Assembly: GCF_014127285.1 (NCBI RefSeq)
Contig: NZ_CP059901.1
Coordinates: 1,364,001 to 1,428,000 of the forward strand
Length of the DNA stretch: 64,000 nucleotides
Direction: 5' to 3'
Origin: Mumia sp. ZJ1417
GTDB lineage: Bacteria > Actinomycetota > Actinomycetes > Propionibacteriales > Nocardioidaceae
This document shows, in pieces, positions 53,883 to 57,192 of the stretch. Under the pieces are notes generated by a model, which worked only from the letters and a program-made list of their open reading frames with translations, was not told where the DNA came from and did not search any database. The position numbers and the translations under genes were made by a program. How positions within the stretch are numbered: position 1 is the stretch's first letter; each line of letters begins with the position of its first letter.

Positions 53883-55031
53883 ATGAGCCAGGACTACTAC
53901 GGGACCCTCGGTGTGAATCGCGATGCGACACCCGAGGAGATCAAGAAGGCATACCGCAAGCTCGCACGCAGCCTGCACCCCGACGTCAACCCCGACCCGG
54001 AGGCACAGGAGCGGTTCAAGACGGTCACCGTCGCGTACGAGGTGCTGTCCGACCCCGAGAAGCGTGCCTTCTACGACCGCGGCGGCGACCCGCTCGGCAG
54101 CGCGGGTGGCGGCGGCGGCTTCGGCGCGGGGTTCTCGTTCAGCGACATCATGGACGCGTTCTTCGGCCAGCAGACCCAGCGCGGTCCGCGCGGCCGGACG
54201 CGTCGCGGCAACGACGCGCTGATCCGCATCGCGGTGCCGTTGGCCGACGCCGCCTTCGGCACCACCCGCGAGCTCAAGGTCGACACGGCCGTCGTGTGCG
54301 GCACGTGCCACGGCAACGGTTCGGCCGACGGCGCGGATCCGGTCACCTGCCAGACCTGTCAGGGCCACGGAGAGGTGCAGCACGTGCAGCGCTCCTTCCT
54401 CGGCGACATCCGTACGGCGCGCCCGTGCCCGACCTGCGGGGGCTTCGGCTCGGTCATCGTCAACCCGTGCGAGGAGTGCTCCGGCGACGGCCGGGTGCGC
54501 GCGCGCCGCACGCTCACCATCAAGGTGCCCCCGGGCGTCGACTCCGGGACGCGCATCCAGCTCACCGGCGAGGGCGAGGTCGGCCCGGGCGGTGGGCCCG
54601 CCGCCGACCTGTACGTCGAGATCGAGGTCGAGCCGCACCAGGTGTTCACCCGCTCCGACGACGACCTCTACTGCGACGTACGGGTGCCGATGACCGCGGC
54701 GGCGCTCGGCACGCAGATCGACCTGCCGACGCTCGAGGCTGACGCCGACGTCGAGGGCGCGGAGCCCACGATCGGCTTCGACATCGCGGCGGGCACCCAG
54801 TCCGGCGAAACGGTGACGATCCGGGGCCGCGGGGTTCCGCACCTACGCGGTGTCGGGCGTGGCGACCTCAAGGTCCGCATGGTCGTCGAGACGCCCACCA
54901 AGCTCGATGAGGCACAGCGAGACCTCCTCACGAAGCTAGCCGTCGAGCGTGGCGAGGAGCGGGTCGAGGCGGAGTTCGCTGCACCCCATCGCGGCAGTGT
55001 CTTCGGCCGGATCCGGGACGCGTTCCGCTGA
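53883..55031 (+). CDS. dnaJ: Chaperone protein DnaJ
   Basis: This 382-residue type I J-protein has a J domain with HPD at residues 32-34, a Gly-rich linker ([12 protein letters not shown]), four CxxCxGxG zinc repeats (CGTCHGNG at 139, [24 protein letters not shown]) and two C-terminal substrate domains. It stimulates DnaK and holds unfolded clients. The ATG at 53883 is 16 bp after hrcA, so CIRCE/HrcA probably controls it. This is the hrcA-linked DnaJ common in actinobacteria. Confidence 0.97.
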
Positions 55032-55128
55032 GGCCAGGAGGATTCGTGGTCGCACGGGGGCCGGTGGCCCGCATACCATGGTCGAGTCCCGACCGAGCGA
55101 AGGAGAACTGCCCCCGACGGGGGTGCCG

Positions 55129-57192
55129 ATGAGTACGCCTGAACCCTTGCAGCACACCGTCACGATCCCGGCGAGCATCCCGATGGTGGCGCTGCTCGGC
55201 CCCGCCGACGAGTTCCTCCGCCTGATCGAGTCCAGCTTCGACGCCGACGTCCACGTCCGTGGCAACCAGGTCTCCATCCGCGCAACGGCGGCCGAGTCCG
55301 CGCTGGTCGAGCGGTTGCTCGATGAGCTGGTGACGATGATCCGGACCGGTCAGGGCCTGACGACCGAGACGATCGAGCGCAGCATCGCGATCCTGCGGAC
55401 CGAGACTGAGGAGCGTCCCGCCGACGTCCTCAGCCTCAACATCCTGTCCAATCGCGGCCGGACGATCCGTCCCAAGACGCTCAACCAGAAGCGGTATGTC
55501 GACGCGATCGACAAGCAGACGATCGTCTTCGGCATCGGGCCCGCCGGCACCGGCAAGACGTACCTCGCGATGGCCAAGGCCGTGCAGGCGCTCCAGTCCA
55601 AGGACGTCACGCGGATCATCCTCACGCGCCCTGCGGTGGAGGCCGGCGAGAACCTCGGCTTCTTGCCGGGCACGCTCAGCGAGAAGATCGATCCCTACCT
55701 GCGCCCGCTGTACGACGCGCTGCACGACATGCTCGACCCCGAGACAATCCCCAAGCTGCTCGCGGCCGGGACGATCGAGGTCGCGCCGCTGGCCTACATG
55801 CGTGGAAGGGCTCAGCCGGTTGACCGCGCTGTGCTGACGCCGACGGGCTGGCAGCGAATCGGCAAGCTGCAGGTCGGCGATCTCGTTATCGGACGGGACG
55901 GTCGACCGACGCCCGTTCTCGGTGTCTACCCGCAGGGTGAGCGTGACGTCTATCGCGTCACCGCCCAGGACGGGGCGTCGACGCTGGCGTGCGGCGAGCA
56001 TCTGTGGACCGTCCGCACGGCGTCGGACCGTCGGCGAGGGCGCAGCCGCACGCTCCAGACACGCGAGATGATCGGCAAGGAGCGGGCGCTGCACGCTCGC
56101 CGATACGAGATTCCGATGGTCGACCCGGTCGAGATGGAGCCGAAGGACATCCCGATCGACCCGTACGCACTGGGGCTGCTGCTCGGCGACGGCTGCCTCA
56201 CGACCAAGACGACCCCGACGTTCACGACCGCCGATCCAGAGCTGGCCGACGCGCTCGAGGGACTGCTTCCCGCGATCCAGGTCGCCCGCCGTGGCTCCGA
56301 CTACGACTACGTGCTCCGACACACCGAAGGTGGACGCGGCGGCCTTCGCATCGCGAACCCCGTCACCGTGGCCGTCAGGGATCTCGCGCTCGTGCACAAG
56401 ACCTCACCCGCCACGTTCGTGCCTGTCGCGTACCTCTACAACTCGCGTGAGGTCCGGCTCGGTGTCCTGCAGGGCCTGCTCGACAGCGACGGCGGGACGG
56501 TCACACAGGACGGCCGGACCTGCCGGATCCAGTACACGACGACGTCGCCACGGCTTCGCGACGACGTGACCTTCCTCGTACGTTCGCTCGGCGGAGTCGT
56601 ATACGTGCATACGCGTCAGGCGAACGGTCGCAAGCCCGGGCTCGCGAGGGGACGTGAGGTTGCCTATCGGCACGACGCCTACACGCTCGACATCCGGCTT
56701 CCGGAGGGTGTCACGCCGTTCCGCCTCGCGCGCAAGGCAGACGCGTACGCGGCAACCGGTGGTGGTCGGCCGATGCGGTTCATCGACTCGATCGAGCCCG
56801 CCGGTCGTGCGGAGACCGTGTGCATCGCGGTCGGTGCTCAGGACTCGCTCTACGTGACGGACGATTTCTTGGTTACGCACAACACGTTGAACGATGCGTT
56901 CATCATCCTCGACGAGGCCCAGAACACCTCGCCCGAGCAGATGAAGATGTTCCTCACCCGGCTCGGCTTCGGCTCCAAGATGGTCGTCACCGGTGACATC
57001 ACCCAGATCGACCTGCCGGGTGGCACGCGCAGCGGCTTGCGGGTGGTGCGCGAGATCCTTGACGGCGTCCGGGACATCTCCTTCCAGATGCTGACCTCCG
57101 CGGACGTGGTCCGCCACAAGCTGGTCGGTCGCATCGTGGCCGCCTACGACGAGTATGAGGACGAAGGTCATGAACGTCGACGTACTCGATGA
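55129..57192 (+). CDS. phoH: PhoH family ATPase interrupted by an in-frame intein
   Basis: This 687-residue precursor would give a 329-residue PhoH after splicing. The N-extein (1-227) has an N-terminal KH-like part and the P-loop [10 protein letters not shown] (135-144). The C-extein resumes at Thr586 with [24 protein letters not shown] (Walker B) and [15 protein letters not shown]. The intact family reads AYMRGR-TLNDAF across the join, exactly where the intein sits. PhoH is an ATPase linked to RNA handling near ybeY. The ATG 55129 lacks a close ribosome site; see finding. Confidence 0.93.
55810..56883 (+). mobile_element. Class 3-type intein with LAGLIDADG homing endonuclease inside phoH
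   Basis: 358 codons. Intein residue 1 is Ala (not Cys/Ser/Thr). The catalytic trio of class 3 inteins is present: Trp66 (GEHLWTV), Cys338 (ETVCIAV, block F) and Thr356 in the end VTHN, with Asn358 at the C-terminus and Thr as the +1 residue. Two LAGLIDADG-type motifs (ALGLLLGDG at intein 120-128 and [11 protein letters not shown] at about 220-230) indicate an endonuclease that looks intact. It lies next to the Walker B of the host, a typical conserved-site insertion. Confidence 0.9.

Follow-up and report, generated by a model that had tools for sequence, protein, structure and literature searches.

Class 3 inteins are already known from the PhoH proteins of Mycobacterium fortuitum and Mycobacterium xenopi, whose sequences (PhoHi) appear in a published alignment (PMC6195587, Fig. 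6a legend), and Mycobacterium smegmatis has also been reported to carry a PhoH intein (PMC7360933). In 2020, 1701 class 3 inteins were catalogued, 82.5 % of them with LAGLIDADG motifs (PMC7891396, section 6). Our study examined phoH in a stretch of 64,000 nucleotides from the chromosome of Mumia sp. ZJ1417 (NZ_CP059901.1, positions 1,364,001 to 1,428,000; hereafter the window, within which positions are counted from its first base). In the same host protein as the mycobacterial inteins, this gene was seen to harbour what is very probably a full-length, mobile class 3 intein with a LAGLIDADG homing endonuclease, spliced and homing as set out below. Because the mycobacterial examples and the catalogued class 3 inteins are in print, the kind is not new, and the PhoH intein of the window is an ordinary, well-made member of a widespread and known class 3 family. 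Experimental work on PhoH inteins was not found in the literature on PhoH and class 3 inteins that is accessible without subscription, and no PhoH intein was found in the available text of PMC5259590, PMC7156551 and PMC3853055.

The insert occupies 358 codons in frame with phoH at the junction AYMRGR/TLNDAF, begins with the residues AQP, ends with THN and is followed by Thr at position +1 (Table 1). When it is removed, 329 residues remain and the extein join is uninterrupted. The PhoH domain was found to be intact across both exteins (PF02562 in two stretches, E 2.7e-90) and a LAGLIDADG_3 domain was detected within the insert (E 5e-11), both by Pfam. Re-reading of the open reading frame (ORF) reproduced the coordinates, frame, length and flanks of the insert given by the original prediction, as well as its Ala1, Trp66, Cys338, Thr356 and Asn358. 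A similarity search found 140 relatives and retained the best 80, a selection that favours close relatives and probably under-samples shortened forms; in 80/80 of the retained loci the insert lay at the identical junction. As these 80 relatives share the junction, and as members of the genus without the insert exist, its presence is not a matter of chance. The G+C content at third codon positions was 0.82 for the intein compared to 0.90 for the exteins, an observation that was given little weight. The insert lies approximately 10 residues ahead of the DEAQ of PhoH, presumably the Walker B motif, and the unspliced precursor should therefore be without ATPase function. We infer the following order of splicing and cutting for the window's intein. 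Attack by Cys338 on the Arg(-1)-Ala1 bond would give the block F branched thioester, the chain would then pass to Thr+1, and cyclization of Asn358 would release a PhoH of 329 residues. Intein-free phoH would be the substrate of the endonuclease, cleaved at the AYMRGR/TLNDAF codons, and the intein would then be copied into the cut gene, an event that would have brought it once into the window's lineage.

Table 1. Features of phoH and its intein, with positions in the window
Feature	Position	Strand	Remarks
phoH ORF	55129-57192	+	ATG 55129, 687 codons/residues
PhoH N-extein	55129..55809	+	227 codons from ATG 55129, ending ...PLAYMRGR
Class 3 PhoH intein	55810..56883	+	358 codons
N-terminal HINT splicing half, blocks A and B, residues 1-95	55810..56094	+	Limits approximate
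Block B Cys61-Gly-Glu-His64-Leu-Trp66 (CxxH.W)	55990..56007	+	
LAGLIDADG endonuclease domain, residues 115-310	56152..56739	+	Limits approximate
First LAGLIDADG motif, Asp127	56164..56193	+	
Second LAGLIDADG motif, Asp225 and Asp227	56464..56496	+	
C-terminal HINT splicing half, blocks F and G, residues 317-358	56758..56883	+	Limits approximate
Block F Cys338, presumed first nucleophile	56821..56823	+	Cys in 97/97 distinct PhoH inteins
Block G Thr356-His357-Asn358	56875..56883	+	97/97 distinct PhoH inteins
PhoH C-extein, Thr+1 through stop, Walker B region	56884..57192	+	

The class 3 triplet of Trp, Cys and Thr (W-C-T) has been defined as Trp at block B:12, Cys at F:4 and Thr at G:5 (PMC7891396), and in the window these positions are Trp66, Cys338 and Thr356, accompanied by Ala1, His357, Asn358 and Thr+1. 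There is no Cys at residue 1 or beside the junction, which agrees with the class originally proposed. The comparison was based upon 99 PhoH inteins, comprising that of the window and those of 98 further loci with an intein at the same site, of which 97 were distinct; His64, Trp66, Cys338, Thr356, His357 and Asn358 were invariant in all 97. In a tree of the splicing domain (138 columns, for which the bootstrap is rough), a branch with support of 100/99 parted 51 class 3 rows, the window included, from 14 class 1 controls (DnaB and ribonucleotide reductase). As the rows had been labelled by motif, the tree was also built without the signature columns (residue 1, block B:7, W, C and T), and the split was kept with support of 99/99 on 133 columns and in 98 % of 200 bootstrap trees, a class 3 affinity that was therefore strong with or without the signature. 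The predicted model lay within a root-mean-square deviation of 1.5-1.8 Å of the solved class 3 DnaB inteins (6bs8, 6rix and 6riy) and matched PI-SceI over its whole length, through both the HINT and endonuclease folds. It is extremely improbable that the intein belongs to class 1 or class 2, with residue 1 or Thr+1 starting the reaction, and that its W-C-T match is incidental. Such an assignment would be in keeping with the Ser1, a possible class 1 nucleophile, of 18 of the 97 distinct PhoH inteins, with the longest structural matches of the model, which were class 1 inteins with an endonuclease, and with the closest sequence match among solved structures, which was a scaffold of the class 1 intein gp41-1, although that entry (6riz) is a variant engineered with W-C-T. 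However, the window itself has Ala1, the triplet does not vary across the PhoH group, the class 1 controls have Cys1 and carry Asp instead of Cys at block F:4, and the two classes separate in both trees.

The Pfam family Intein_splicing (PF14890) returned no match in a search of the genome, even to the phoH intein, and because this intein went unmatched the family is not a good detector for it. The 18 PhoH inteins that combine Ser1 with the full W-C-T set (L024, L026, L028, L031, L032, L035, L038, L039, L042, L043, L046, L047, L050, L054, L059, L065, L069 and L115) each have two residues that could serve as the first nucleophile.

Four actinobacterial inteins related to the PhoH group (L129, L130, L131 and L136) are hosted by a protein that we recognized as RecG, in what is presumably its Walker A motif (QGEVGSGK/T). 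These class 3 inteins share the W-C-T set and the AQP start with the window, but differ in their site, HRLLQGEVGSGK/T, and in a block B of DDEHLW, and their best tblastn identities to the window ranged from 31 % (L136) to 39 %. RecG is listed as an intein host in PMC5874633. The W-C-T set and HINT fold of the window are also those of M. smegmatis DnaBi1 and M. chimaera DnaB1 (6bs8, 6rix and 6riy), which occupy a different host and site (DnaB); DnaBi1 has Ala1, as does the window, but differs in its Asp62 at block B:7 and in having no endonuclease (PMC6195587). Six DnaB genes (L152, L153, L154, L158, L161 and L162) were seen to carry two inteins each, one of class 3 and one of class 1 in the case of L153, L154, L158 and L162. 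Mycobacteriophage class 3 inteins (among them those of Phrappuccino and Pinkcreek) have W-C-T and 37-43 % similarity to the window over their whole length, but their hosts differ, being by annotation a DarB-like antirestriction protein or terminase (Phrappuccino) and a DNA helicase (Pinkcreek). Phage records matching the window's intein numbered 563/50,697, all with <60 % identity, and a PhoH annotation was absent among the matches listed (15 of the 563). In two IMG/VR contigs (39-42 %), the inteins follow MGLGK, which resembles a Walker A motif and belongs to a different protein. At the window's own phoH site, an intein with 63-64 % identity to that of the window was found in two genomes of family f4 (L119 and L120), with Ser, not Cys, at block B:7.

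Within the genus, only one of six genomes, that of the window, was found to have the insert, in a single copy by similarity search. In the other five genomes (G001-G005) phoH is uninterrupted, G005 being judged by one unbroken domain match across the junction and not base by base. The intein-free phoH that the original prediction had proposed looking for in close relatives was thus present in 5/5 genus-mates. The nearest of these, G003, has exteins 97.2 % identical to those of the window over 216 residues and was its sister in the extein tree (96/95). This provides a clean example of an intein and its empty-site relatives within one genus, useful for studying the homing event, and a single gain within the window's lineage or genus would be the simplest reading. 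In the family sample, phoH was split at the same point in 4/61 genomes (G000, which is that of the window, G018, G039 and G057); the main PhoH type went unmatched in one of the 61 (G054), and another (G053) has partly unread bases at the phoH locus, with the junction itself uninterrupted. An even sample of the phylum comprised 396 genomes, of which 54 had any match and 15, including the window, had one at E 1e-100 or better.

The intein most similar to that of the window was from Geodermatophilus (L009), with 74.0 % identity and exteins 83.2 % identical, compared to intein identities within the window's own family of 53.1 % (L121), 53.6 % (L122) and 58.4 % (L123), where the exteins were 90.0, 89.5 and 86.5 % identical, respectively. 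Phylogenetic inference joined the window with the Geodermatophilus intein (89/81), and the exteins placed the window near Kribbella (90/83), in a wider group with Nocardioides. A clade of the window and L009 was rejected by the extein data in the approximately unbiased (AU) test (p-AU 5e-5), the pair having been chosen after the intein identities were seen. Geodermatophilaceae was considered as a possible donor by horizontal transfer, and its monophyly was not rejected by the intein tree (p-AU 0.158). Among 98 loci with an intein, only the window and Blastococcus L030 have the 14 bases that follow the insert, ACGTTGAACGATGC (56884-56897), at the junction, and none of 33 loci lacking an intein has them, a set in which one genome recurs; these bases are possibly, if weakly, suggestive of a short co-converted donor flank.

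Both LAGLIDADG motifs of the window are whole, in line with the original prediction, and the acidic residues and a complete PI-SceI-like HINT and endonuclease fold are present in sequence and model, which suggests that the endonuclease is probably functional. The median ratio of nonsynonymous to synonymous substitution rates (dN/dS) was 0.17 for the endonuclease, 0.08 for the splicing domain and 0.09 for the exteins, based on 1028 non-independent pairs, all from other members of the PhoH intein family. This means that the endonuclease of those members is under purifying selection, weaker than that on the splicing domain and exteins. Several of our results nonetheless weigh against a single gain by homing with a working endonuclease. 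The window, being ≤74 % identical to any other intein, is in none of the dN/dS pairs, and its own endonuclease thus falls outside this measure. Within its family, the endonucleases of L121 and L122 are shortened and L123 has His in place of the first-motif Asp, so that loss of function is common among near relatives. Furthermore, the intein tree does not fix the donor, and it does not reject co-inheritance within the family (p-AU 0.105, or 0.33 for the window with L121 and L122). The lack of rejection of co-inheritance, the existence of shortened relatives and a dN/dS for the endonuclease around twice that of the splicing domain would all be compatible with an intein that splices but no longer cuts, passed down by vertical descent and lost repeatedly in the genus. 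We regard this alternative as possible but rather doubtful, given that the motifs and their Asp residues are whole in the window, and that vertical descent would need several precise losses to explain the absence of the intein from every genus-mate, even the one with the most similar exteins. Shortened forms, with lengths of 289, 292 and 296 aa, account for three of the 99 PhoH inteins (L121, L122 and L135); they have altered motifs but complete splicing residues, and are apparent half-way steps to mini-inteins.

A mobile intein with a homing function need not be the only role considered, as splicing could also act as a redox or stress regulatory switch for PhoH, for which block B:7 (N3:7) is of relevance. 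This position is residue 61 of the window's intein, three residues ahead of the catalytic His64, and among the 97 distinct PhoH inteins it was Cys in 87, Ser in 5 and Thr in 5. Residue 63 tracked it, with Asp63 in 10/10 non-Cys rows and Glu63 in 83/87 Cys rows, counts that are uncorrected for relatedness. Elsewhere among cellular class 3 inteins, 18 of the 19 examined had Asp at this position and the remaining one had Ser; L140, which also has Asp, was left out of this set as its C-terminus was not recovered. Five viral class 3 inteins displayed Asp (twice), Ala, Cys and Thr, and as one of them has Cys, this residue is not confined to PhoH inteins. L163, an intein of a viral contig in another host protein, has a block B of CCEEHLW, with Cys at position 7. 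The residue at block B:7 is described as not conserved among class 3 inteins generally, with Gly and Asp functionally characterized before the Ser example of the same paper, and Cys is unmentioned in the available text of its discussion of that position (PMC7891396). The Cys of PhoH inteins at this position is little-noticed, and the natural variation of the group here and at residue 1 (Ala in 79 and Ser in 18 of the 97) makes the roles of both in class 3 chemistry directly testable. It is conceivable, although unlikely, that in PhoH inteins the block B residue beside the N-junction became a second active-site thiol (CxxH compared to DxxH/TxxH), with Cys61 and Cys338 forming a reversible disulfide or a metal site, or with a role of Cys61 in acyl transfer. 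If true, PhoH maturation would be redox- or metal-sensitive across many actinobacteria. A regulatory switch would have a precedent in the related DnaBi1 of M. smegmatis, which is inhibited by oxidation via a Cys pair (PMC6195587), and would draw on the frequency of Cys at block B:7. We consider it quite improbable, however, as the intein is sporadic (1/6), and therefore not needed by the genus, and as the genome holds a second, uninterrupted PhoH-domain gene (G000:C1:943724-944335).

The original prediction also placed phoH in a heat-shock operon, and this was upheld as far as the gene order hrcA-dnaJ-phoH-ybeY-CNNM/CorC-era, which Pfam confirmed (HrcA, DnaJ, PhoH, YbeY, CNNM/CorC and an Era-like GTPase with a KH domain). 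Its further suggestion, of splicing that conditions ribosome-linked stress control, drew support from none of our results. In other bacteria, rsmE is often found at the position between dnaJ and phoH. The spacing here is only ~100 bases (55031-55129) and rsmE is not at this gap, the only place where it was sought. YbeZ, the PhoH-like protein of Escherichia coli, interacts with YbeY by two-hybrid test (PMC5101352), a contact that does not address regulated splicing; because of this interaction, PhoH is plausibly a ribosome-linked protein.
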